A stretch of DNA of 56,224 nucleotides from a virus: the IMG/VR virus record IMGVR_UViG_3300025131_000046, positions 1 to 56,224 of that record; one strand, given 5' to 3'. Position 1 is the stretch's first letter, and every line of letters begins with the position of its first letter. This document shows positions 3,692 through 47,149 of the stretch, piece by piece. The position numbers and the translations under genes were made by a program. Below the pieces are notes generated by a model. It had not been told where the DNA came from. It did not search any database and saw only the letters and a program-made list of their open reading frames with translations.

Positions 3692-4204
3692 ATGTATGCT
3701 GATCAGCACCAGTATAACAATTCTGGCGTAATCATGAATTTTGACATTGAGCCATACTGCCCGACATCTCATCGAGATGGTGTGCGACTTGTTGAGCGTC
3801 AAGCTCGGGAACATCCCTGGTCGAACGCTCGTTTAATCATGCTGCTGAACCTAAGAGCCACACGCACATTTGTAGCTTGTGACCAAGGCTTTGTTGCTGG
3901 GTTCGCCATCTCACATATTCACACACGCTCAAATACACTTGAACTAATTACAGTCTGCGTATTATCTGAATTCCGTAGACGAGGAATTGGGACACGCTTA
4001 ATCAATGCCGTGCTTGATTGTGCGGGCGACAATGAATTGGATGTGATCTGTGAGATTAAGGAAAGAAACCTTGATGTGCAGATGACGATGAAAGCTGTTG
4101 GGTTGTTATGTACCAAGATCGTTAGCTTTTCCCCAGAAGAAGACTCGCTGTATGTATTTCAGTTGGAACCTAACGCCAGCGTATTTACGCCATATGATTA
4201 TTGA
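3692..4204 (+). CDS. GNAT-family N-acetyltransferase
   Basis: Single GNAT fold: N-terminal strand/helix pair (ERQAREHPWSNARL), a beta4 strand (TLELITVCVL), and the acetyl-CoA binding motif A with RRRGIGTRLINAVLD (R/Q-x-x-G-x-G/A), followed by a typical AxN-like segment and C-terminal strand (SLYVFQLEP). It resembles RimI-type enzymes that acetylate protein N-termini or small amines; the substrate cannot be told. A second Met at residue 15 (3734) starts MNFDIEPYCP and may be the true start because neither has a strong ribosome site. First gene of the rightward late block. Confidence 0.8.
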   Translation: MYADQHQYNNSGVIMNFDIEPYCPTSHRDGVRLVERQAREHPWSNARLIMLLNLRATRTFVACDQGFVAGFAISHIHTRSNTLELITVCVLSEFRRRGIGTRLINAVLDCAGDNELDVICEIKERNLDVQMTMKAVGLLCTKIVSFSPEEDSLYVFQLEPNASVFTPYDY

Positions 4205-4235
4205 TTTTATGGTCAATGAATGAGGCAGTAAAGTA

Positions 4236-5150
4236 ATGGATTTTCCATGTGCGATTGTTGATTGTTTTGCTCAACATCCTAACTTGTGTCGATTGTCGAT
4301 TGCAAAAAAGACTGTGAAAGGAAAGCCAATTGATCAGGTAGCGGTTAAGTTTGTGATGGCAGAGAAAAAACTTCTTGAGTTTGTACCAGTAGATGAACTT
4401 GTGCCTGACATCTTTCTTGAGGCACCGACTGATGTTGTTCAGGGAAAGCCAGCATACACATTTGAGATTAAAGCTAATCAGGCTGTTGCTTTTCGACCAC
4501 AAGGTAAGGGAATCAATTTACCTCTTGGTCATAGACAAGATACTGATCCTCTTATTGGCGGCATTCAAATTACTGCTGACATGGGACAGAAGGCCGGTAC
4601 ACTCGGAGGTTTTATTCAAGACTCTCATGGTCAGTGGGTAATGCTGACATCTCATGCTGTTGTTCAGTCAACAGTTGAGGGAGTGTATCAAGCCGGGCCA
4701 AAAGGAAGAAAGATTGGAGCATATCGTAATTATCCTGCCGAACTTGGTTTTCCAGTTGCGGTACATATGGAGCCAGATTTAAGGTTTCAGCCACGAGCAA
4801 TTATGGGTATTGATGTACCTGTTTTGCTGGATGAATACACTGTGCCAACATTAGGTATGAAAGTAGTAAAATCTGGCAGAACAACAGGTGTTACAACAGG
4901 TGTTGTATCAGAAGTTAATACTTTTGCTTTCTTGTCTCAGGTAAATGGTGATGAGCACTACTCAGAATTTATGGCTGAGTTGTTTGTTGTTGAGTCTGAC
5001 ACCAAGGCTACATTTGCAACTAATGGTGATGCTGGAGCGTTAATCATTCATGATGGCGGGATTATTGGTATGGTTATTGGGGGTACAGAAAAGGAAACAC
5101 TTTGCTGTACATCAGAAGCAATCTCCGATTGCATTGACCAAACTGATTGA
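4236..5150 (+). CDS. Trypsin-like protease-fold protein lacking the catalytic serine
   Basis: 304 residues with a chymotrypsin-like pattern in the C-terminal two-thirds. A GTLGGFIQDSHGQWVMLTSHAV segment carries the histidine (H140), and a linker TSGVVS-like region (SGRTTGVTTGVVSEV, 213-227) precedes ATNGDAGALIIHDGGIIGMV, where GDSG is expected. Residue 266 is Ala, so the nucleophile is missing. The N-terminal ~115 residues are a separate alpha/beta domain. No signal peptide. A binding or structural pseudoprotease is more likely than an active enzyme. Confidence 0.65.
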   Translation: MDFPCAIVDCFAQHPNLCRLSIAKKTVKGKPIDQVAVKFVMAEKKLLEFVPVDELVPDIFLEAPTDVVQGKPAYTFEIKANQAVAFRPQGKGINLPLGHRQDTDPLIGGIQITADMGQKAGTLGGFIQDSHGQWVMLTSHAVVQSTVEGVYQAGPKGRKIGAYRNYPAELGFPVAVHMEPDLRFQPRAIMGIDVPVLLDEYTVPTLGMKVVKSGRTTGVTTGVVSEVNTFAFLSQVNGDEHYSEFMAELFVVESDTKATFATNGDAGALIIHDGGIIGMVIGGTEKETLCCTSEAISDCIDQTD

Positions 5151-5250
5151 CAGACGACAATAATTTAAGTAGTCTAATTACTGACAAATCAATTCTTTGC
5201 ATGATTACCATCTCATCTCATCATGCGTAATATTTACTTGTTGGAAAGAC

Positions 5251-5544
5251 ATGATGAGTACAAAACAAAAAGAGAATCTGTGGGAGATGTTTAACACAGT
5301 TATTAAGTGGAGCTATCCTCCTATAAGTGGATTAGTTGTATTTCTAGTTGCGGGACACATTAGCCAAGAAATTCGTTTGTCTGAGCTTGAATCGAACCGC
5401 TGGACCGAACGCGAGCAGGCACAGTTTGAAAAAGAACATACACGGGAATTCAATACGCAGATACGGAAAGTCAGAGACGACTTGCATTTGATTCGTGAAT
5501 CGCAAGCTCGGTTGGAAACCAAACTCGAAAATGTAAACAAGTAG
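5251..5544 (+). CDS. Membrane-anchored coiled-coil protein (holin-like candidate)
   Basis: Start taken at the ATG ATG pair after GGAAAG. One transmembrane helix (PPISGLVVFLVAGHI, about residues 21-36) is followed by a highly charged coiled coil (EREQAQFEKEHTREFNTQ to the end). Size (97 aa) and topology resemble phage lysis accessories or spanin/holin-type proteins. It lies next to exported and peptidoglycan-binding-type proteins, which favours a cell-envelope role. The lysis assignment is inferred. Confidence 0.5.
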   Translation: MMSTKQKENLWEMFNTVIKWSYPPISGLVVFLVAGHISQEIRLSELESNRWTEREQAQFEKEHTREFNTQIRKVRDDLHLIRESQARLETKLENVNK

Positions 5545-5553
5545 GGGTAAGCC

Positions 5554-6180
5554 ATGAAGAAGGATGTGGCAGTGTGGTTATTGGTGTGGCTAGTAGCAAT
5601 GGTTGCTTGCTCAGCAGTAGGCTACGCATACACAACGTACGTAGTGCTGAAAACATCCAAGGGGTACTTTGTTGTGGCAGAAGGACCGGATGGTATGCCT
5701 GTTACTACTGAGGCAGCGTTGCAAGACCTCACTGGAAGAGTTCCGCCTGTTGATCCAGACGATGATAATGATGATGGTGATAATGATGATAATGATGATA
5801 ATGATGATGGTGAGGATGGTGAGGACTTGCCAGATGGACGGTTTGGGCTAGCACCACTTACGAGGCAATTGGCAACAACCCTTGTAGAAGACAAGCACCG
5901 TTCAGCGGCTGCAAAACTTACCGACGCTTACGCCATTGTGGTTGAACAAGCATCCGACGACAGCTTCGAGAACGTTCAGCAGATGGTTACCGTCCAAAAG
6001 GGTGTCAACGCGAATGTGCTAAAAATGGAGAATATACCTACCAAATCATGGAAGCCATTTTTCACAGCACTAGGTAAAGCCTTAAGTGATTTGCAACGCA
6101 GCGGGAAGCTGAAAACAACAATCAAGGATCACATCATCGCATGGGAAGAGATAGCGATGGGATTGGATGCGGTCAAATGA
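5554..6180 (+). CDS. Signal-anchored protein with Asp/Asn-rich linker
   Basis: N-terminal signal anchor (VAVWLLVWLVAMVACSAVGY, residues 5-24). After about 45 residues comes a run of some 30 Asp/Asn/Glu/Gly (DDDNDDGDNDDNDD...), encoded by GATGATAAT-type triplets, then a helical C-terminal domain (about 95-208). The acidic linker may bind Ca2+ or act as a spacer outside the membrane. It overlaps the metalloprotease gene by ATGA, so the two are likely co-translated. Confidence 0.65.
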   Translation: MKKDVAVWLLVWLVAMVACSAVGYAYTTYVVLKTSKGYFVVAEGPDGMPVTTEAALQDLTGRVPPVDPDDDNDDGDNDDNDDNDDGEDGEDLPDGRFGLAPLTRQLATTLVEDKHRSAAAKLTDAYAIVVEQASDDSFENVQQMVTVQKGVNANVLKMENIPTKSWKPFFTALGKALSDLQRSGKLKTTIKDHIIAWEEIAMGLDAVK

Positions 6181-6956
6181 CAGATTTTCTGGAGCCCCTA
6201 CCAAAGGCTGACGACGCGATCATTCAGAATCGACTAACATCGTTAGGTTATGTTGGTAAACTCGCTGAGACAATCAAGAAGTTCCAGGCGTTCAACGGAC
6301 TCAAGGATGACGGAGACTGTGGACCTATTACCTCTCAACTCCTGTTGTATGCTCCCCGTTGTGGTTGTGATGACGTTCAACGTTCTGGGCTTTGTCGGTT
6401 TCCTCATAAGGATGTGAGGTGGTGGCATGATATGTCTTTCTCAGGACTGTCGTCTGAGGAAGTGCAACGAGCATATAAGGCAGCATGGAAAGTCTGGAAC
6501 AATGTTTGTGGGCTAGCAGCAATTGAAACGGGTTCAAAATCCCTCGCAAACGTGTACGCACACGCAAGAAGAATTGATGGAGGTGGGGGAACGCTTGCTT
6601 GGTCTTACTTGAGTTGCGGTGCTGACGAAGACACACAATTGGAACAGCGGTACGACACGAGCGAGAGTTGGGGGTATCGTTCATTCCGTCGAGTGGCGAT
6701 CCACGAGATCGGTCACGCTCTCGGATTTGATCATAGTCCAAATCGTTCTTCTATCATGTATGCCTACTCCAACGCAGATGTAAATGAGTTGTCAGCGGAA
6801 GACATCCAGGGAGCAATCAAACGTTATGGAGAAAATACTAATCCAACTCCACCTATACCACCAACGCCTCCTGATAATGGGCCTGTTATCACGGGAGAAA
6901 TCGGAATTGACGGTATACCATACTGGCTTGTGAAGAAAATCGACTACAACCCATGA
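6177..6956 (+). CDS. Matrixin-like metalloprotease with peptidoglycan-binding domain and cysteine-switch motif
   Basis: Residues 10-58 resemble a PG_binding_1 domain (QNRLTSLGYVGKLAETIKKFQ). PRCGCDDV at 60-67 matches the PRCGxPD inhibitory switch of matrix metalloproteases. The catalytic zinc site HEIGHALGFDH (176-186) is complete, with a Met-turn at SSIMYAYS. A Pro-rich linker and a 25-residue tail follow. Start 6177 is preferred because it overlaps the upstream stop as ATGA. No signal peptide is visible, so it would act as a virion component or after lysis. It may digest host surface protein or cell-wall material. Confidence 0.85.
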   Translation: MTDFLEPLPKADDAIIQNRLTSLGYVGKLAETIKKFQAFNGLKDDGDCGPITSQLLLYAPRCGCDDVQRSGLCRFPHKDVRWWHDMSFSGLSSEEVQRAYKAAWKVWNNVCGLAAIETGSKSLANVYAHARRIDGGGGTLAWSYLSCGADEDTQLEQRYDTSESWGYRSFRRVAIHEIGHALGFDHSPNRSSIMYAYSNADVNELSAEDIQGAIKRYGENTNPTPPIPPTPPDNGPVITGEIGIDGIPYWLVKKIDYNP

Positions 6957-6963
6957 GGCTATT

Positions 6964-7548
6964 ATGTGGATGATTCTGGTTGCTGTTTTAGCTAATCCTA
7001 TTGACTATGACATGCTTTCTGCACCAATTGATTATGGTCAGAATGGGGATGTTACTTTTCTCCAGGAAGAGACAAAGCCGGTTGTTAGAATTTATACAGC
7101 ATCATGGCATAAACCATGCAGGGTACTGAAAAGGAATCTTACTTCTATTATTGATGTTAAGATTCAATGGATTGATGAAGTAGATACACCTACTTGGGTA
7201 AGAACACTTCCTACAATTCATTGGGAAAAGACTCCTGGTAATTGGCGTCAGTTGAGTGGGGCAGTTTCTAGGGAACAATTTGATTCTATTGTTTTGGGTA
7301 AGCAGCCTTCTTTTTCTAAATATGTAATTCAGTTCTCAGGGCGACAATGGACTTGGCCTGGAAGTATTCGTAATCATTTACTTGGTGAAATCCATCAGTT
7401 TACAGAAGAAGAATTGAAGGGTTTCAGTGATGCTGAGTTGATTCAGATTCATAACTACGAGCATGAGCATAATTTACCTCGCGCAAAATACCCATTAAAA
7501 ATTGTGCTTGACAAACGTTTTCCAATTAGACAGTATTGTCCCACCTGA
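6964..7548 (+). CDS. Exported thioredoxin-fold protein with degenerate active site
   Basis: Starts at MWMILVAVLA, a short hydrophobic leader. A thioredoxin-like segment VRIYTASWHKPCRVLKRNL (about residues 42-60) carries WHKPC where WCxPC is normal, so the first cysteine is lost. The strand LPTIHW follows as expected. The C-terminal third has FTEEELKGFSDAELIQIHN, a helical motif often seen after this domain in wall-associated bacterial proteins. Disulfide chemistry by a resolving-Cys-only site is doubtful, so binding or a structural role is likely. Seven bases after the protease gene. Confidence 0.6.
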   Translation: MWMILVAVLANPIDYDMLSAPIDYGQNGDVTFLQEETKPVVRIYTASWHKPCRVLKRNLTSIIDVKIQWIDEVDTPTWVRTLPTIHWEKTPGNWRQLSGAVSREQFDSIVLGKQPSFSKYVIQFSGRQWTWPGSIRNHLLGEIHQFTEEELKGFSDAELIQIHNYEHEHNLPRAKYPLKIVLDKRFPIRQYCPT

Positions 7549-7585: not shown

Positions 7586-7972
7586 ATGACACAGTTAGTA
7601 CAGCAGCTTCAAACACAGGTTGATCAGAATCTTATAGAGCAGGACATTCCTCAAGAATTCCTAACTCCAGAACTTGGCGGAATTCTGATTGAAATTCTGA
7701 TTGAGTTTCTTACGTCTTGTATTGGTCGTCTTGGAAAACAGTCTGTTGCTGAAAGGATGCATGATCCTGGACCTTATCAGAAGATGGCACTGAAGAGAGA
7801 AATCAGACGAGCGGTCTATGATGGATCATGGAGAAAGTATCGTATTGGAGGTGGTAATAAGGTCCGAACTGCTCTTTTGCAAGTTTCTACGCAGTCTACT
7901 CCAGAACAATGTATGGCTTTAATTGAAGAGGTTGAAACTGAAGTTCCGGGTATTGACTATGACATGGGATAA
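7586..7972 (+). CDS. Hypothetical protein (128 aa)
   Basis: Helical N-terminus (QLVQQLQTQVDQNLIEQD), a hydrophobic helix (GGILIEILIEFLTSCIG, about 31-47) that could be a membrane or packing helix, then a basic region (KREIRRAVYDGSWRKYR). A GGAG site 8 bases before the ATG supports the start. Ends with IDYDMG, close to the IDYDM segment at the start of the preceding thioredoxin-like protein, possibly a shared sorting motif. Function unknown. Confidence 0.7.
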   Translation: MTQLVQQLQTQVDQNLIEQDIPQEFLTPELGGILIEILIEFLTSCIGRLGKQSVAERMHDPGPYQKMALKREIRRAVYDGSWRKYRIGGGNKVRTALLQVSTQSTPEQCMALIEEVETEVPGIDYDMG

Positions 7973-8876: not shown

Positions 8877-10130
8877 GTGACTGCTCCCAGCGGCCCCATC
8901 CTGTTCAACAACCTGACCGGCAGCGACACGACCGATAGCGGGTTGGGTCCAGCCACCTCCGTTAACGGGGCCGGTGCGAGCACAACAGCAAGCTCGGCGG
9001 TTGTGACTGGCATCGATACGACCGGCGTTAGTGCGGGGGATCTGCTCTATGTGGATTCTACGAGTGGTCGCAAGTTTTCAATCATTGCCAGTGTTGATAG
9101 CGCGACTCAAGCGACGTGTGACGACACGTTCGACAACACCGAAGCAAGCCGCAATTGGGGCATCGGCGGGAAGCGTGCGACGCTCGAATCATCCCAAGCG
9201 ATATTTGACGATCCAAAAGGCGGATGGGTTATCGACATCGAAGAAACCGGCACGGATTACCAATTAACGGGGGCGACAATCACAGCGAGCGGCGACACCA
9301 CGAATGGGTATGTAACCTACAAGTCCTCGTCGGCAACGAAGCCTATCATCAGCCTGGAGAATCCGGGGACTGCTGCCTGGATCCTTGGGATCTCGGCGAA
9401 CGCCGTACGGTTTGAGGGACTGGCATTCTCTCACGAGACGAACAATACCGTTGTCAACGGCCTGGTTGCCGGTGCGACCACCACGATAAGCTTTATGGAT
9501 TGTGATTTTACGCAGGTGAACAGCACGCAAAATGATCACGCATTGTGGTTTAGCGTGAATTCGACAGTCTGTGACGTGCGAGTCCAACGCTGCGTCTTCC
9601 ACGATGTTGGGGGCCTGCGTTTTAACTTTACGCAAGCCATAACCGGGATTTTAGTTGAAAACAATCGGTTCGCAGACATGCGTGTAGGCTACTACAGCAC
9701 CAGTGCAATCTATATTGAAGATGTACGTGGGGCCAAAGTCGTCAATAACATCATAGCTGACGCCTCTGGAAACGGTATAGAAATTGTTGGGAAGTCCGAC
9801 GGGGCTATCATTGAAGGGAATGTCGTTGTCGATTCGGGCGGCGATGGAATCGAGATCGGGTGCCAGGCAACGGTAAAGCGGAACATCCTGCAAGGCAACG
9901 GGGCGTATGGTATTCACAATGCGGATACGCACCACGATGACTATTACGTTGCTGATTGGAACGCATTCCGCAATAACACCTCGGGCGAAACATCGGGCAT
10001 AGCAAGCGGCGACAACGACATCACGCTGACGGCTGACCCGTTCGTTGACGCATCCTCGGACGACTTCAACATCAACGACACTGCCGGGGGCGGCACGGTG
10101 CTGCGTGCTGCAACGGTGACGATGCCATGA
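8877..10130 (+). CDS. Right-handed beta-helix tail fibre or spike protein
   Basis: 417 residues from a GTG start one base after the upstream stop. The central part is a run of ~22-residue coils typical of parallel beta-helix proteins (VENNRFADMR, VVNNIIADASGNGIEIVG, IIEGNVVVDSGGDGIEIG, VKRNILQGNGAYGIHN; about residues 245-345), as in NosD/pectate-lyase superfamily proteins. No catalytic set is certain. In phages such folds bind or cleave surface polysaccharide, so a receptor-binding role is likely. GC-rich codon use. Confidence 0.8.
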   Translation: MTAPSGPILFNNLTGSDTTDSGLGPATSVNGAGASTTASSAVVTGIDTTGVSAGDLLYVDSTSGRKFSIIASVDSATQATCDDTFDNTEASRNWGIGGKRATLESSQAIFDDPKGGWVIDIEETGTDYQLTGATITASGDTTNGYVTYKSSSATKPIISLENPGTAAWILGISANAVRFEGLAFSHETNNTVVNGLVAGATTTISFMDCDFTQVNSTQNDHALWFSVNSTVCDVRVQRCVFHDVGGLRFNFTQAITGILVENNRFADMRVGYYSTSAIYIEDVRGAKVVNNIIADASGNGIEIVGKSDGAIIEGNVVVDSGGDGIEIGCQATVKRNILQGNGAYGIHNADTHHDDYYVADWNAFRNNTSGETSGIASGDNDITLTADPFVDASSDDFNINDTAGGGTVLRAATVTMP

Positions 10131-14920: not shown

Positions 14921-16675
14921 ATGGTAAGAAAACGTAAAGTACCGTCTGCGATTGATAAACGACTTAAAGCTCTTGACAAGTTACTCAAAGCAGACCGACC
15001 TAAAGGCCAACTTGAAACAAATCAGATACATCGTTGTATGGATGATCTGAAGAACTGTAAAAACAAGGGGTTTGCTTGGGACGAAGATCAGGTAGAGAGA
15101 ACCCTACATCTCTTTACCTTGATGAAGCATTGGAAAGGAAAGTTCGCAAACCAGAAACTAACACTTGCTGATTGGCAGGAGCATTGTATTATTGCTCCGC
15201 TGTTTGGTTGGTATCTAGAAAAAACACGCAGTAAAGGTGGGTATCGCAGATTCCGTACTGCCGGAATTGAGATGCCTAGAAAGAATGGTAAAACTACTTT
15301 AGCTGCTGGTATAGGTCTTCAAGGATTGACAGCAGATGGGGAGCATGGAGCAGAGGTTTATTCAGCAGCTACAAAAAAAGATCAGGCTAACATTGCATTC
15401 AAGGATGCCAAGGGTTTGCTTGGTCCTGAATTAAAGCAGCTTTGCAAGGTCCATAGACATGCAATATCTTTCCTGCCCCTGGCCGGTACTTTTCAATCTT
15501 TATCTTCTGATAGTAATTCGTTGGATGGTCTTAACATCCATCGTTGCATTGTTGATGAACTGCATGCTCATAAGACCCGCGATTTATGGGATGTTCTGTT
15601 AACGGCTACTGGTGCTAGAGATCATCCTTTGATTCTCTGGATTTCTACCGCTGGTTATAACCGCCAATCAATCTGGTATGAACAAAGAGAGTATTGTTGT
15701 AGGATTCTTGACCCAAATGACACATTAACTAATGAATCATATTTTGTTTACATGACAGGTATTGATGATGGGGATGATTGGCTTGATCCTAAAATCTGGT
15801 GGAAGGCCAACCCCAACATGAATATCTCTCTCAATGAAGATTACTTAGTTAATGAGTTTACCAAAGCAGAAGACTCTCCTCAGTATGAGAACAAGGTTCG
15901 TAGGCTACATCTGAATCAGGTTACGGAGCAGGCTGTTAGAGCTATTGTGATGCGTAATTGGGATCGGTGTAATGAAGCTGCTCCTGATACAATCTCAGAT
16001 ACAGAAACTCTTAGGCTGTTTGAGGAACGGCTGAAAGGACAGCCATGCTGGGGTGCGATTGACTTAGCATCTACGAGAGACCTTTGTGCTTGGGCAAGAG
16101 TCTGGAGGCTAGATGGTAAGTTTTATACTCGTGTGCGTTACTATGCTCCTGAAGAAGCATCTAACGTTAGACAAGCCTATGATTTGCAAAGCTATAATAC
16201 TTGGGCACAAAAAGGATTGATTACACTGACTCCTGGGTCAGCTACAGATTACGACAGAATTCTCAGAGATATTGAGAACGACCATCAATTCTCTCCTGTT
16301 TTAACTATTGCTCTAGACCCACATAATTCATCTCAGTTTGCTCAGTCTCTGTTGAAGCTCGGATGGATGGAAGATGATGTTGTGAATTTTCCGCAGTGGG
16401 CAAGATACTATCATGAGCCGTGGACACGATTGGTTGAACTGGTTAACTCTCAGCACCTCCAGCATGGGGGAGATGAAGTTTTAAGATGGATGGCAGCAAA
16501 TACTGTTGCAAAGGAAGACTCAAACGGTTATGTTAAACCCGATAAACAAGCAGGCCAAGATAAAATTGATGGTATAGTTGCTCTAACAATGGCCTTAGCG
16601 ATGTCTCTTAATCAAGATGATGTCTTTGTACCGTTAGGTCGATTCTATGAAGAAAATGATATTGAAGTATTTTAG
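14921..16675 (+). CDS. terL: Terminase large subunit
   Basis: ATPase-nuclease that pumps DNA into the prohead and cuts it. Walker A is PRKNGKTT (119-126) in the GIEMPRKNGKTTLA context typical of HK97/P27-partnered TerL. Walker B with catalytic Glu is CIVDELHAH (209-217), and the coupling motif lies in ILWISTAGYNR. The RNase H-like nuclease begins WGAIDLASTRDLCAW near residue 380, and a later DPHNSSQFA segment carries another acidic ligand. 584 residues is full length. Confidence 0.93.
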   Translation: MVRKRKVPSAIDKRLKALDKLLKADRPKGQLETNQIHRCMDDLKNCKNKGFAWDEDQVERTLHLFTLMKHWKGKFANQKLTLADWQEHCIIAPLFGWYLEKTRSKGGYRRFRTAGIEMPRKNGKTTLAAGIGLQGLTADGEHGAEVYSAATKKDQANIAFKDAKGLLGPELKQLCKVHRHAISFLPLAGTFQSLSSDSNSLDGLNIHRCIVDELHAHKTRDLWDVLLTATGARDHPLILWISTAGYNRQSIWYEQREYCCRILDPNDTLTNESYFVYMTGIDDGDDWLDPKIWWKANPNMNISLNEDYLVNEFTKAEDSPQYENKVRRLHLNQVTEQAVRAIVMRNWDRCNEAAPDTISDTETLRLFEERLKGQPCWGAIDLASTRDLCAWARVWRLDGKFYTRVRYYAPEEASNVRQAYDLQSYNTWAQKGLITLTPGSATDYDRILRDIENDHQFSPVLTIALDPHNSSQFAQSLLKLGWMEDDVVNFPQWARYYHEPWTRLVELVNSQHLQHGGDEVLRWMAANTVAKEDSNGYVKPDKQAGQDKIDGIVALTMALAMSLNQDDVFVPLGRFYEENDIEVF

Positions 16676-16844
16676 TGAATTCATAACAACTGTTGGGTAT
16701 GTAGTTTTCTGTGCGGGACTTTATCGAATTCATTTGCCCACCATGTTACTTTTTGTTGGTGCTTCATTAACAGTATTCGGTATACATCTGGAACTAAAAA
16801 ATGTTCGCAAACGCAATAGCATCAGTGGTCAACGCAAGTCTTGA
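16647..16844 (+). CDS. Small membrane protein overlapping terL and portal genes
   Basis: 65 residues with two hydrophobic helices (FITTVGYVVFCAGLY and TMLLFVGASLTVFGI) and a basic tail (KNVRKRNSISGQRKS). The start overlaps terL by 29 bases and the end overlaps the portal start by 44 bases, in another frame. It fills the only gap between the two. Could be a lysis or superinfection protein. Confidence 0.55.
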   Translation: MKKMILKYFSEFITTVGYVVFCAGLYRIHLPTMLLFVGASLTVFGIHLELKNVRKRNSISGQRKS

Positions 16845-18375
16845 AAATCCAGCAATGTCGTTGACTGACCCCTCAACATGGGATGACATCTTTTCTGGGT
16901 CTGAAGCTGCTTCTGGCGAACGCATCACCCACACATCCTCTTTAAAATCTGCCCCAGTATGGCAAGGTGTGTCTGTTATCAGCGGTGATTTAGCATCTAT
17001 TCCTATTCATATTCGTAGAATAGAGACTGAGGGTGCAAATAAAGGTGATGCTGAGATTGATACTACACATGCTGTAGAGTATCTGATTTCTGTTCAGCCT
17101 AATGACGAGATGTCTGCGGTTGATCTCTGGCGTCGACTCTTTGTCCATGCTCTGTTGTGGAATAACGGCTATTTGTTTATCGAACGTAAAGGTCGTGCTG
17201 CATCAGGTAAGATTCTAAGCTTGGCAAACCTGCTGCCCGACAGAACCTATTCCACCAGAGATGAACATGGTAATCTGTTTTATGTAACAGAAATAGATGG
17301 TCGTCTTGAGCCTCTACTGCCTCATGAAGTGTACCACCTTAAAGGTATCTCTATAGATACATCTGGTGGGCTTGATATGGTAGAGAATGCACGAGATGCT
17401 ATTGGTCTTGCATTAGCTGCTCAGAACTTTGGATCACGATTCTTTGCTAATGGTGCTCAAGCAGGTGGTGTGCTGGAAGTTCCGGCAGACTTCTCAGCTA
17501 AGGCTACACATAACTTGGAAGTAAAATTTGGTAAGCAGTATTCTGGCAGAAACAATTGGTTCAAAACTATTGTGCTACGAGACGGAGCCAAGTTTCATCA
17601 AACCATGCTGGACGCTGAAAAGAGTCAGATGCATGAATTAAGAGAAGATCAAATTAGGGAGATTGCAAGATACTTCAATCTTCCACCTTTCAAGCTTGGT
17701 GCTAAAGAGACAGTTCAGTACAAATCTGTTGAGGATCAACAGCTTGTTTATCATACTGGTACTCTTACTCACTGGTTATCTGCAATTAAAGGTGAGGCCA
17801 CAATCAAGTTCTTGACAAGTCCACAAAAGAAGCGTAGAACACATGGGGTGTGGCATGATGTAAAGACTTTGATTTCTTTGGATGCTAAGACTCAAAACAC
17901 TCTACTTGATACTCAACGTAAAAGTCTTGTAATTACTGGTAACGAGTGGCGTAGAGAGATTGGCAGAAATCGATCTTCTGATCCCTTGGCTGATAAGCTT
18001 ATCAATCCTAATACGCTGTCAAACGATGAGTCTAAACCAGACGATAAAGACGTTCCTGATGACACCAGTGAAGACACAGACGGCACTACTCCTGATCAGG
18101 ATGCTCAGAATATCCGAGAATTGATTATTCAAGATGCTGAATATGCTGCGAATGCTGGTCATGCTGAGTATGGTGGTTGGGTTGATGAACCCTTCTCTCA
18201 GTACTTGATGTTTGAAGATGTTGATTTATCTAGGTACAATCTTCTTAGCGTATATGTAGAAACACTGCATGACCTGTTTCGATCTACACTTGATGCTCCA
18301 TTAGATAGCTTGCTTAGTACAGTAGCGGAAGCTTGCTTAAACGCTCGTAAAATTCCTACCGGATTTGAAGAATAA
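16801..18375 (+). CDS. Portal protein (HK97 family)
   Basis: Dodecameric ring at the head vertex through which DNA passes. The HK97-type portal pattern is clear: SLKSAPVWQGVSVISGDLASIPIHI near residue 50, WRRLFVHALLWNNGYLFIER, EVYHLKGISIDTSGG, ARDAIGLALAAQNFGSRFFANGAQAGGVLEVP, and LREDQIREIARYFNLPPFKLG. The C-terminal ~100 residues are acidic and variable. A second Met at residue 19 (MSLTDPSTW) could be the start. The end overlaps nothing until the prohead protease. Confidence 0.92.
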   Translation: MFANAIASVVNASLENPAMSLTDPSTWDDIFSGSEAASGERITHTSSLKSAPVWQGVSVISGDLASIPIHIRRIETEGANKGDAEIDTTHAVEYLISVQPNDEMSAVDLWRRLFVHALLWNNGYLFIERKGRAASGKILSLANLLPDRTYSTRDEHGNLFYVTEIDGRLEPLLPHEVYHLKGISIDTSGGLDMVENARDAIGLALAAQNFGSRFFANGAQAGGVLEVPADFSAKATHNLEVKFGKQYSGRNNWFKTIVLRDGAKFHQTMLDAEKSQMHELREDQIREIARYFNLPPFKLGAKETVQYKSVEDQQLVYHTGTLTHWLSAIKGEATIKFLTSPQKKRRTHGVWHDVKTLISLDAKTQNTLLDTQRKSLVITGNEWRREIGRNRSSDPLADKLINPNTLSNDESKPDDKDVPDDTSEDTDGTTPDQDAQNIRELIIQDAEYAANAGHAEYGGWVDEPFSQYLMFEDVDLSRYNLLSVYVETLHDLFRSTLDAPLDSLLSTVAEACLNARKIPTGFEE

Positions 18376-18403
18376 CCAAGCTTCCGCTTATAAGGATGTA
18401 ACT

Positions 18404-19165
18404 ATGCCTAAGAAACGACTTTTTAACATTAAGCCTCTGAGTAATGATGTCATTGATAAGGCCGCTTCCCAACAAACCTTTTATCAGGTGTCTCTGTCTA
18501 AAAATAAGGAGACGGAACAAGAAATTGTTGACTTGGTAATCTTTGAACAAATTGGTCATGATCCTTGGACTGGAGAAGGTGTTGGGGCTAAAGATGTTGC
18601 TGCTTTCCTTTCTGAGAATAAAGGTAAAGAAGTAAACGTTCGTATCAATAGTCCTGGTGGCCTGGCCTTTGATGGGATTACTATTCATAACTCGCTTATT
18701 CAACATAGTGGTAACGTGAATGTCACTGTTGAAGGTATTGCTGCTTCAGCCGCTGCTATTATCATGTTAGCTGGTGACAACGTTAGAATGTTTGACAACG
18801 CATCCACCATGTTTCATAGGGCTATGGGCTGGGCCTTTGGGAACAGGGATGAGATGGATGCAATGATTGAAATCCTTGACTCACTTGATGAGCAGATTGC
18901 ACTTACTCTTTCCCAGAGATCGACTCTGGATAAGGAAGAGGCTATGAGTCTTCTAGTTGGTAAGCACGATGGAACTACGTTAACAGCAGAAGAAGCACTA
19001 GAAGTAGGTATCATTGATAGTGTAATTACCCGGCCTAAAAAGCAGAAAAAGCAAGAAGCTGAAGATCGCTCTAAGTCGAGTATTAGTAATATGATGAAGC
19101 GTGAATGTAGCATGAGACTTAGAAGTCTCGAATTAGATAATGACAGCATTCGGTTTGACAGCTAA
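18404..19165 (+). CDS. ClpP-like prohead maturation protease
   Basis: Start at 18404 is chosen for the AAGGA site 8 bases upstream; the frame is open back into the portal gene but lacks a ribosome site there. ClpP/SppA-type serine protease: INSPGGLAFDG (oxyanion region, 81-91), the nucleophile in EGIAASAAAII (Ser115), and the histidine in STMFHRAMG (His138). A Lys/Glu-rich tail follows. It trims capsid precursor and scaffold during head assembly. Lies directly before the capsid gene as in HK97. Confidence 0.9.
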   Translation: MPKKRLFNIKPLSNDVIDKAASQQTFYQVSLSKNKETEQEIVDLVIFEQIGHDPWTGEGVGAKDVAAFLSENKGKEVNVRINSPGGLAFDGITIHNSLIQHSGNVNVTVEGIAASAAAIIMLAGDNVRMFDNASTMFHRAMGWAFGNRDEMDAMIEILDSLDEQIALTLSQRSTLDKEEAMSLLVGKHDGTTLTAEEALEVGIIDSVITRPKKQKKQEAEDRSKSSISNMMKRECSMRLRSLELDNDSIRFDS

Positions 19166-19228
19166 GAAAACCCGTGCTATATTGTTGACTTCGATGATTA
19201 CAAACTTCATCCTTTTAGGAAATATGCT

Positions 19229-20611
19229 ATGGATCGTCTGAAAGAACTTCAGGAACTGCGGCTGAAGCTTCACAATGAGATTAAGGCTCACGCCGATAAG
19301 CTTCCGGCTGACGGTACTGAATCTCCTGAATGGAAGGAAACCTGGGATCAACTGAATAAAGCCTATGACGAAAATATGGTTTCGTTGGATGCTGAAACCA
19401 AGAAGATTGCTGAGTCTCAGGCTGTTCAAAACCGGCTGTCTGCAATTGATACGCAGCTTTCCAGCATGCCGAGGTTTGAGCTTCAGAACTTCAACCAGCC
19501 GCCTCAGAATCCTCTGCCTAATAGTAACCAGCCAGTAACGTTTGAGCAGCAACAGTTGCTGGCTCTCCAAGGCTGGATGATGAACTCTTCATCCGAACAC
19601 AGTCATCGGATTGAGGATCGACATCGTCAAGCTGCTCTTGCTACTGGTAACCGTCTTGACAGTAAAGATTTTGTGTTTGAGTTGAGCACTACTCAAGCCT
19701 TTAATCAATATCGTAGGGATCGTCTCCAGAATGCTCTAACAGGTGGTCAAGGTACAAAAGGTGGATTCATCACTGGTGAATCTTTCGTAGCATCTGTTGA
19801 ACGAGCCATGCTTGATTTTTCTGGTGTTGCTCAAGCTGCCGATATTATTCGTACGAATAACGGTGAACCTATTCACTACCCAACTGTGGATGACACTAGC
19901 AATACTGGTCGATTGGTTGGTGACGGTTCTGCTGTTACAGCAACTGCTGAACCTACTTTTGGTGATGCAATTCTGTCGGCATATACCTTTACCTCTGATG
20001 AGATTAAGGTTGCACGGGCATTGCTGGAAGACTCTATGCTCGATCTGGGTAACTTGGTTGGCTCGCTCTTGGGTGAGCGGCTTGGTCGTATCCAGAATAC
20101 CAACTACACTACGGGTACTGGTGCTGGTGTTGCTCCTCGTGGTGTTGTCACGGCTGCAACGGCTGGTGTAACGGCGGCTTCTACATCTGCCATCGTTTTT
20201 GACGAAGTTATTGATCTGGAGCACTCTCTCAATCCTTCTCGTCGTGTTCCTGGTCAGGGAACAGGCTACATGTTCAACGATGCTATTCTGCAAACTCTCC
20301 GTAAGCTCAAGAATGGTATGGGTGACTATCTGTGGCAATCAGGTGCTAACTCTGGTGCTCCAGATACACTCAACACTTGGCCTTACTGGATTAACCAAGC
20401 CATGGCGTCTACGATTGCAACCACCAACATTACGATGTTGTTTGGTGCATTCCGTAACTATAAAATTCGTCAAGTTCGTTCCATTCGTTTCCAACGTCTA
20501 GTTGAGAGGCATGCTGAAAATGATCAGGATGCTTTCTTGGCCTTTGTTCGTGGTGATGGTAATCTCGTAGATGCTGGGGATGGTGTAGTTCGTAAACTGA
20601 CCCAAGCATAA
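19229..20611 (+). CDS. Major capsid protein (HK97 fold)
   Basis: 460 residues. The N-terminal ~130 residues are a helical delta/scaffold domain (MDRLKELQELRLKLHNEIKAH and beyond), expected to be removed by the upstream protease. The mature part begins near the GTKGGFITGESFVASVERAML segment and continues with typical HK97 elements (EPIHYPTVDDTSNTGRLVGDGS, FTSDEIKVARALLEDSMLDLG, YTTGTGAGVAPRGVVTAAT, YKIRQVRSIRFQRLVERHAEN). AGGA lies 10 bases before the ATG. Forms the icosahedral head. Confidence 0.93.
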   Translation: MDRLKELQELRLKLHNEIKAHADKLPADGTESPEWKETWDQLNKAYDENMVSLDAETKKIAESQAVQNRLSAIDTQLSSMPRFELQNFNQPPQNPLPNSNQPVTFEQQQLLALQGWMMNSSSEHSHRIEDRHRQAALATGNRLDSKDFVFELSTTQAFNQYRRDRLQNALTGGQGTKGGFITGESFVASVERAMLDFSGVAQAADIIRTNNGEPIHYPTVDDTSNTGRLVGDGSAVTATAEPTFGDAILSAYTFTSDEIKVARALLEDSMLDLGNLVGSLLGERLGRIQNTNYTTGTGAGVAPRGVVTAATAGVTAASTSAIVFDEVIDLEHSLNPSRRVPGQGTGYMFNDAILQTLRKLKNGMGDYLWQSGANSGAPDTLNTWPYWINQAMASTIATTNITMLFGAFRNYKIRQVRSIRFQRLVERHAENDQDAFLAFVRGDGNLVDAGDGVVRKLTQA

Positions 20612-34398: not shown

Positions 34399-35313
34399 AT
34401 GTCCGAGTCCAAAACGCAAACGCTCGAAGCTGTTGATTATGCGGCTGTTAACTGGGAAGTTATTGACAAACTAACCAAAGAAATGATGGCGTCTGCTCTA
34501 ACTCTTACTCAGAGAGAAGCCCGACATTTAGTAGGCATGTATTACTCAGTACAAAACTTCCGTATTCATGCTGGGAACCACACCTCAGTAAAAACAGGGG
34601 CAGATGCTAATCCTGTCCTGGCTTGGGTGTTTTCTAACTGTCGCCTGATTGAGGAGAATATTAAACGGGCACTTGGCAGGTTTGCAGCAGAATTTACAGT
34701 TGGTCAATGGTTACAGAGTATCTGCGGCATCGGTCCTGTTATCTCGGCTGGCTTCATTGCTCACCTTGATGTTCGAGACCGACCTACCTATGGTCACTTT
34801 CACTCGTTTGCTGGTCTCAGTCCCCATATCAAATGGGAGAAAGGACAAAAAAGACCATTCAACGCTGCTCTTAAAGTCCTCTGTTACAAAGTAGGGGAGA
34901 GCTTTGTCAAAGTCCAGAACAACAAAAAGGACTACTACGGTAAGCTGTATGCTGTACACAAGGCTGGCCTAGTTCTGCGTAATGAAAGGGGTGACTTTGC
35001 TGAAGACTCTGCTCGAATTCTAACCGAAAAGAATTGGGGTAAAGACACTGATGCTTACGGGCATTATTCGGGTGGTAGACTACCGCCCGCTCATGTCCAT
35101 GCTCGTGCTCGTAGATATGTAGCCAAGCTACTTTTGTCACATCTTCATACCGTGATGTATGAAGACTATTACAAAACCAAAGCTCCTATTCCTTACCCAT
35201 TTTCTAAACATGCAAAAGAAGCTGCTATGCCTGATCATCGTCACTTGCTAGAAGTCCCTAACTGGCCGATGTTATCCTTTGGAAAAGACTTAGCCTGCCT
35301 GCTTGATTCCTAG
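34399..35313 (+). CDS. Tas-like Nop-domain protein (IS110 C-terminal-domain-like), no nuclease
   Basis: 304 residues. Residues 1-105 are helical (TLTQREARHLVGMYYSVQNF, LIEENIKRALGRFAAEFT). A helix-hairpin-helix-like core follows: SICGIGPVISAGFIAHLDV (107-125), FHSFAGLSPHIKW (134-146) and GQKRPFNAALKVLCYKVGESF (149-169). This is the Transposase_20 region of IS110 enzymes, structurally akin to the Nop domain of box C/D RNPs. The IS110 N-terminal DEDD/RuvC domain and its catalytic Ser are absent and there is no HNH, so it fits nuclease-free TasA rather than a transposase. Flanked on both sides by the same ~37-bp array. Confidence 0.75.
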   Translation: MSESKTQTLEAVDYAAVNWEVIDKLTKEMMASALTLTQREARHLVGMYYSVQNFRIHAGNHTSVKTGADANPVLAWVFSNCRLIEENIKRALGRFAAEFTVGQWLQSICGIGPVISAGFIAHLDVRDRPTYGHFHSFAGLSPHIKWEKGQKRPFNAALKVLCYKVGESFVKVQNNKKDYYGKLYAVHKAGLVLRNERGDFAEDSARILTEKNWGKDTDAYGHYSGGRLPPAHVHARARRYVAKLLLSHLHTVMYEDYYKTKAPIPYPFSKHAKEAAMPDHRHLLEVPNWPMLSFGKDLACLLDS

Positions 35314-46759: not shown

Positions 46760-47149
46760 TCATATCTTCTCTCTCCATGCAGAACCTAAATGTTCTAACC
46801 CGTTAATACTTCTGTTCCAAATGTAGCAGTACACATTACATATTTCATACTCCCGTTTTGTAAACATCTCTGCTTCCAATAGCTGCCTGCCAAACATTAG
46901 TCCTCCCCCTTCGTATATGTCAATCTCCTCAAGTCTCTCTTTGGGTACTTCATACACCTCACCAACCACTACATCAGATCCCTCTAAGCCCTCAATTCCT
47001 GCTGATAAGACTGCTACAGGAAACCCACCAGCATCAAACAATGTATGCTCCCGAATGATTGCTTTACCTAAGTATTTATCACCAGAGAGATACTTGTTAT
47101 GCTGTCTACAGCCTCTCATCAGGTAGCCGTAAACAAATAGATACGCCAT
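46760..47149 (-). CDS. Gamma-glutamylcyclotransferase/AIG2-like protein
   Basis: 129 residues. MAYLFVYGYLMRGCRQHNKYL matches the YGxLmxG glycine loop, VVVGEVYEV the middle strand, and IDIYEGGGLMF the catalytic Glu region (about residue 79). The family converts gamma-glutamyl amines to 5-oxoproline. Phage versions are rare enough that the substrate is unknown; glutathione or modified nucleobase-linked glutamate are possible. Distal gene of the leftward small operon. Confidence 0.8.
   Translation of the reverse strand: MAYLFVYGYLMRGCRQHNKYLSGDKYLGKAIIREHTLFDAGGFPVAVLSAGIEGLEGSDVVVGEVYEVPKERLEEIDIYEGGGLMFGRQLLEAEMFTKREYEICNVYCYIWNRSINGLEHLGSAWREKI

Follow-up and report, generated by a model that had tools for sequence, protein, structure and literature searches.

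A matrixin-like zymogen with a conserved cysteine switch, predicted from the genome of a tailed phage and its viral relatives

Animal matrix metalloproteases (MMPs) are, in the textbook account, controlled by a cysteine switch, and a phage gene now raises the question of whether the same device operates in a viral setting, without the structural zinc, and to what end. The gene (6177..6956, plus strand; coding 6177-6953, stop to 6956) lies in the window analyzed here, the whole of IMG/VR record IMGVR_UViG_3300025131_000046 (56,224 bases). The record is that of an environmental tailed phage, with genes for small and large terminase, portal, ClpP-like head protease and HK97-type major head protein at 14.4-20.6 kb, more structural genes after these, and DNA polymerase, primase, helicase and RuvC-like genes beyond 32 kb. 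An IS110/IS116-type transposase-like gene (34399-35313; PF02371, phrog_4285) is found within the replication region, and a gamma-glutamyl cyclotransferase-like gene (phrog_2520, 1.7e-12) occupies the minus strand at 46760-47149.

The predicted product is an M10 matrixin-like protein of 259 amino acids. A prodomain resembling PG_binding_1 (residues 16-56, 6222..6344; Pfam and AlphaFold2 model) is followed by the motif PRCGCDD (residues 60-66, 6354..6374), which directly precedes, as in M10A enzymes, a Peptidase_M10 catalytic domain (PF00413; residues 85-218, 6429..6830) scoring 63 bits against a Pfam cut-off of 24. Sequence and alignment place the catalytic zinc site, HEIGHALGFDH, at residues 176-186 (6702..6734) and the sequence gives a Met-turn, IMY, at residues 193-195 (6753..6761), in agreement with the HExGHxxGxxH and Met-turn of M10A; a proline-rich linker and, in the model, a short C-terminal beta hairpin (strands 241-244 and 247-250) complete the protein (6837..6953). 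The best match by sequence among solved structures is full-length human proMMP-1 (1su3, E 7.8e-18; phmmer), with PRCG aligned on PRCG. The PG_binding_1 match lies just above its threshold (24.9 bits against a cut-off of 23) and human MMP prodomains share the fold; it may reflect the prodomain fold only and need not mean peptidoglycan binding. By inspection, the N-terminus (MTDFLEPLPKADDAIIQNRL) has no hydrophobic leader where M10A enzymes have a signal peptide. We favor the ATG at 6177 over an alternative in-frame ATG at 6141 because it overlaps the stop codon of the upstream gene (ATGA, 6177-6180); since the next gene also starts 8 bases past the zymogen stop, the zymogen gene sits in a tight cassette.

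An earlier note on this DNA had read the motif as a match to the PRCGxPD switch. The PRCG and the final aspartate are indeed retained, whereas the second proline is replaced by Asp65 and an extra cysteine, Cys64, is present. Absence of the second switch proline in tobacco NtMMP1 has been suggested to weaken the switch (PMC2715019), and by that comparison the substitution would count against a zymogen.

An AlphaFold2 model built on an alignment of 48 sequences (pLDDT 89.8, pTM 0.83) predicts a prodomain of three helices (13-22, 29-39 and 50-58) docked on the active site, as in M10A precursors. Its top structural match is latent proMMP-1 (VIA-align Z 26.4, 2.0 A over 203 residues, model 14-225); on proMMP-3 it superposes at 2.1 A over 202 residues. 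These are comparisons of a zinc-free model, from a method whose training set included human proMMPs. Because both domains superpose together on the latent enzymes, the switch segment would fill the cleft as it does in latent proMMPs, and Cys62 should lie where the proMMP switch cysteine plugs the zinc. The test that the earlier note had proposed, prediction of Cys62 relative to the zinc site, was thus passed indirectly, through the overlay of a docked-prodomain model at 2.0-2.1 A over about 200 residues. As modeled, the fold of the protein and its inhibition by a cysteine plug should be nearly identical to those of human MMP precursors.

The likeness to human proMMP-1, -3, -9 and -2 (collagenase, stromelysin and gelatinases; MEROPS M10A) comprises the three-helix prodomain resembling a peptidoglycan-binding (PGB) domain, a PRCGxxD switch, HExGHxxGxxH, the Met-turn and the docked-prodomain fold. 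The window protein differs from these enzymes in having no signal peptide that we could see and no hemopexin domain, in the changed proline and added cysteine of its switch, in its short beta-hairpin tail, and in the loss of structural-zinc ligands. In MMP-1 these ligands are His168, Asp170, His183 and His196. The positions of His183 and His196 are W142 and R158 in the window protein, and neither is histidine in any of 45 viral sequences outside L052 (45/45), the first being mostly Trp and the second mostly Met, Arg or Lys in the viral branch. Both histidines are kept in L052 and in the cellular prokaryotic relatives L002 (an archaeal Nitrososphaerales metagenome-assembled genome) and L003 (Arthrobacter), which share the PGB - RCGxPD - M10 order with the window protein and differ from it also in their extended C-terminal domains. 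Such proteins are rare in Actinomycetota, where the profile, prodomain part included, is matched over most of its length in 2 of 296 genomes. The description of the protein as built like a vertebrate MMP therefore stands for the domain order, and fails as a marker of vertebrates, for that order also occurs in an archaeon and in Arthrobacter and the viral branch is without the vertebrate structural-zinc ligands. MMPs have been described with a structural zinc besides the catalytic one (PMC12587646, PMC7290392). Because that feature and a visible signal peptide are missing, we do not file the protein as a canonical MMP; judged by its sequences, the viral branch is a variant within Peptidase_M10 that lacks the structural-zinc histidines MMPs keep. 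Karilysin, an MMP of Tannerella forsythia whose latency uses an aspartate, shares the M10 catalytic fold (4r3v, Z 21.2 over 158 residues), whereas its propeptide form aligns to the window model only from residue 59 and is without the PGB-like prodomain.

Is the motif a chance resemblance in one protein? A single-sequence protein search returned no relatives from viral contigs or INPHARED, an alignment with MMP-1 likewise found none in viral contigs, and PHROGs holds no family for the zymogen, its matches being confined to the PGB-like part (PHROG 1493, 2649); annotation by PHROGs and INPHARED misses this family. It was found only via a DNA pattern for the zinc site, which gave at least 120 matching stretches in viral contigs, and then by alignment of viral sequences. 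Sixteen ORFs from the pattern set carry an RCG-type motif at the right distance; these loci were selected for RCG, and the unbiased sets are that of the alignment search and an independent pattern set. An alignment of RCG-bearing ORFs (A3) detected at least 205 encoding stretches in viral contigs (IMG/VR), 80 of the 205 being kept. The patterns behind relatives L124-L203 did not include the switch; RCGxPD occurs in 74 of 81 loci (L124-L204), 120-129 residues before the zinc motif and as RCGLPDF in 66 of the 74, and in the remaining seven a cysteine survives within a shifted motif, PRFCAYPD for example. After grouping at 90% identity, the family loci form 43 groups.

In a further alignment (A4), Cys62 is present in 48/48 sequences, Arg61 in 47/48, Asp66 in 45/48, and the three zinc histidines and the glutamate in 48/48. 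The 48 relatives are only 21-37% identical to the window protein, and invariance of Cys62 across this distance argues that the motif did not arise by chance. The cysteine-switch zymogen architecture put forward in the earlier note is thus borne out by Pfam domain order, by alignment with proMMP-1, by Cys62 and by the model overlay. The domain order of the cellular relatives and the departure of the window motif from consensus at one proline might still reflect the ordinary, recent capture of a host gene that is in decay or serves no phage function, its switch-like motif being inherited baggage. We regard this as very improbable, given that more than 200 viral contigs encode the family, that Cys62 and all catalytic residues are invariant, and that the viral branch has a signature of its own (structural-zinc ligands lost, W142) and conserved cassettes. 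The literature searched, of which coverage was incomplete, nowhere describes a phage matrixin with a cysteine switch, in keeping with the earlier remark that the arrangement is seldom noted there; bacterial MMPs are known and widespread, and the main text describing them is silent on phages, viruses and cysteine (PMC12587646).

The genes around the zymogen, all on the plus strand in the window, bear on where it acts. Upstream lie a trypsin-like serine protease of the Nal1/S64 type (4236..5150; phrog_20754 'protease', E 1.8e-18), a small protein that has a single hydrophobic segment and whose tail resembles a coiled coil (5197..5544), and the immediate partner of the zymogen (5554..6180; cluster 36), which has an N-terminal hydrophobic anchor, an acidic linker and a helical C-terminus. 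This partner also carries a long Asp/Asn-rich acidic repeat (DDDNDDGDNDDNDDNDDGEDGED). Downstream are a putative exported thioredoxin-fold protein with a degenerate active site, WHKPC (6964..7548), a small protein (7586..7972; cluster 43) and, beyond the cassette, a right-handed beta-helix protein resembling a tail spike (8877..10130). The zymogen directly follows its cluster-36 partner in the window, L131, L154, L181 and L194, and cluster-43 homologues lie downstream in the same four relatives as in the window; cluster-36 homologues also adjoin the zymogen in L132 and L134 and are three genes off in L198. The hydrolase slot before the zymogen varies, being filled by the Nal1-type protease in the window, by Lipase_3 in L181 and by another protein in L131 and L154. 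Cys73 and Cys147 come and go jointly (of 48 sequences, 32 have both, 14 neither and 2 one), the pattern that a disulfide formed outside the cytosol would leave, and this hints that the protein works there despite the lack of a visible leader.

Phage endolysins with peptidoglycan-binding domains (PHROG 1493, 2649) resemble the zymogen in joining a PGB-like domain to an enzyme domain; they differ in that the window catalytic domain is an M10 protein endopeptidase fold with a zymogen switch and is no known peptidoglycan-cleaving fold. One PG_binding_1 match per record was found in 11 of 12 records searched, and 17 records, several near 200 kb and some possibly fragments, gave no above-cut-off match to Amidase_2, Phage_lysozyme, SLT, M15_3, M23, NLPC_P60 or Glucosaminidase. 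M23 matches in the large contigs were rejected as sub-threshold, one set of ORFs of about 1470-1490 amino acids having the length of the downstream RNA polymerase subunit gene and others being ORFs of 391-671 amino acids. The zymogen is in consequence the only recognized candidate for the endolysin role in the records searched, where endolysins of other types could exist. Against that role, a matrixin is expected to cut protein, and the bonds known from peptidoglycan are not among matrixin targets. The analysis identified no clear holin; the protein at 5197..5544 looks like an i-spanin or holin by eye only, with a weak LysB/Rz-like NCBIfam match (E 0.034).

A precedent for a proteolytic contribution to lysis is the Listeria phage-derived metzincin Mtz, which raises sensitivity to phage lysis; it differs from the window protein in its Sec-dependent secretion and in having a TIMP-like lipoprotein, Tim, as its partner, and the paper names no cysteine switch (PMC8235301). 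On the strength of this precedent, of a zymogen that has no leader, of partners that are exported and of the lack of a recognized endolysin, we favor, tentatively and at a little under an even chance, a latent envelope protease used more probably at exit than at entry. Computation supplies the domain order, conservation of the switch, a zymogen-like predicted structure, gene context and the absence of recognized endolysin domains, whereas its latency, activation, compartment, timing and substrate are inferred. The protein would be a latent zinc endopeptidase working like a proMMP, its three-helix prodomain laying PRCGCDD across the active-site cleft with Cys62 as the fourth ligand of the catalytic zinc. 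Having no leader, it would be made inactive in the host cytosol, sparing the phage factory, and would act at the envelope of the cell, most likely when the phage leaves, with the neighboring anchored and exported proteins forming a lysis or envelope-breaching cassette. Once the switch had been removed or oxidized, whether by self-cleavage, by redox chemistry or by another protease (for example the serine protease encoded upstream), the zinc would be accessible and the enzyme would cut envelope proteins. A family of this kind would point to an unrecognized protease-based route through bacterial envelopes and would supply small leaderless zymogens for studies of latency.

In six relatives (L050, L064, L111, L112, L008 and L037) a baseplate wedge/Baseplate_J gene (PHROG_6, 4.4e-19; PF04865, 6.7e-13) comes immediately before the zymogen gene, and this adjacency favors a role in the virion over exit. 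The earlier note had suggested a latent protease that is carried in the virion and could be activated on contact; the protease would then be a baseplate or tail part, kept latent by the switch during assembly and unmasked at adsorption, when it cuts surface or envelope proteins for DNA entry. A leaderless, latent protein suits packaging, a beta-helix or tail-spike-like gene follows the cassette in the window and in L181, and the short beta-hairpin tail that recurs in many relatives could be a docking tag. Lysis genes, however, also adjoin tail genes in many phages, and the immediate neighbors of the window zymogen are exported or anchored proteins rather than baseplate genes, a position within a cassette of exported proteins that makes exit at least as likely as entry. 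The C-terminal tail, examined as a shared virion tag, had no matches in other proteins of the relatives' contigs. We consider a virion-borne protease possible, and less probable than the envelope protease deployed at exit.

Part of the family appears to take another path. In the independent pattern set, ORFs strongly matching the family profile mostly have the switch, and strong matches without it are contig-end fragments or members of a subgroup that, by eye, has a Tat-like leader and no PGB domain (L035 13451-14092; L114 11205-11849; L049 296-943; L100 5783-6394; L089 1972-2571). Within the Tat-signal subgroup the motif decays, to RCPIRS in L049 and to cysteines without a switch motif in L083 and L089. 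Small numbers are thus suggestive of a switch that is strict where the enzyme is leaderless and looser where it is exported directly. In seven loci (L013, L031, L075, L077, L139, L193 and L201) an exported CxxCH cytochrome-c-like gene lies within 2.1 kb of the zymogen (among them L013 5928-6599; L031 2740-3309; L075 3455-3946; L139 12045-12896), and no locus with an unrelated metzincin has such a gene within that distance. Leaders in L035, L114, L049 and L100, neighboring cytochromes that recall a periplasmic accessory module, and the proposal that bacterial MMPs digest external protein (PMC12587646) would fit an auxiliary protease, exported or released to alter the host surface or surroundings during infection (nutrient release, exclusion of competing phages, degradation of secreted defense proteins) and dispensable for entry and exit. 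This we think rather unlikely, as the window protein and the members bearing PG_binding_1 are leaderless and conserved neighborhoods adjoin tail genes in unrelated phages.

It is unusual for a phage to encode c-type cytochromes. A large protein family that matches nothing in Pfam or PHROG is found repeatedly next to the zymogen and cytochrome genes (L031 3322-4785; L013 6590-8302), with homologues in L008, L037, L044, L075, L077, L139, L193, L199 and L201; a homologue on a Neorhizobium plasmid (26% identity) is annotated as a c-type cytochrome.

A thioredoxin-like exported protein lies near the zymogen in the window, L181, L194 and L198. The window protein is without the first cysteine, whereas the other three keep CxxC; as it was modeled at low confidence (pLDDT 49.5), assignment of the fold rests on Pfam matches of the homologues in L181 and, weakly, L198. 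Recurrence of secreted thioredoxin-like or cytochrome-c genes beside the zymogen, in these four loci and in the seven with cytochromes, makes redox gating worth considering. A redox-gated matrixin zymogen may have replaced the classical endolysin, remaining latent in the reducing cytosol and unlocked by envelope oxidation, with its timing set by the adjacent thioredoxin-like or cytochrome-c proteins and, in a subset, with a CGC dithiol as the switch; its hosts would have protein-rich walls and possibly be Planctomycetota. We hold this elaboration to be improbable. A DUF1501 gene (PF07394, 4.3e-71) lies directly beside the zymogen gene in L100 (6462-7712), and L139 gave a sub-threshold match to 'Planctomycete cytochrome C'; these are leads that suggest Planctomycetota hosts for some members.

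In a large clade, many of whose contigs are near 200 kb, a Volactin-type actin gene is encoded upstream of the zymogen and, downstream of it, a gene in which RNA polymerase beta and beta' are fused. Judged by RNA polymerase, the annotated phages closest to this clade are Salmonella phage Arash and Vibrio phage D69; a comparison of synteny with these two found no endolysin in the matching place and told us little. L124 of this clade, whose contigs reach about 205 kb, encodes a Volactin-family actin-like protein (3722-4729; PF25216, 1.4e-62) and a single ORF of 1466 amino acids with both Rpb2 (beta) and Rpb1 (beta') domains (15696-20093).
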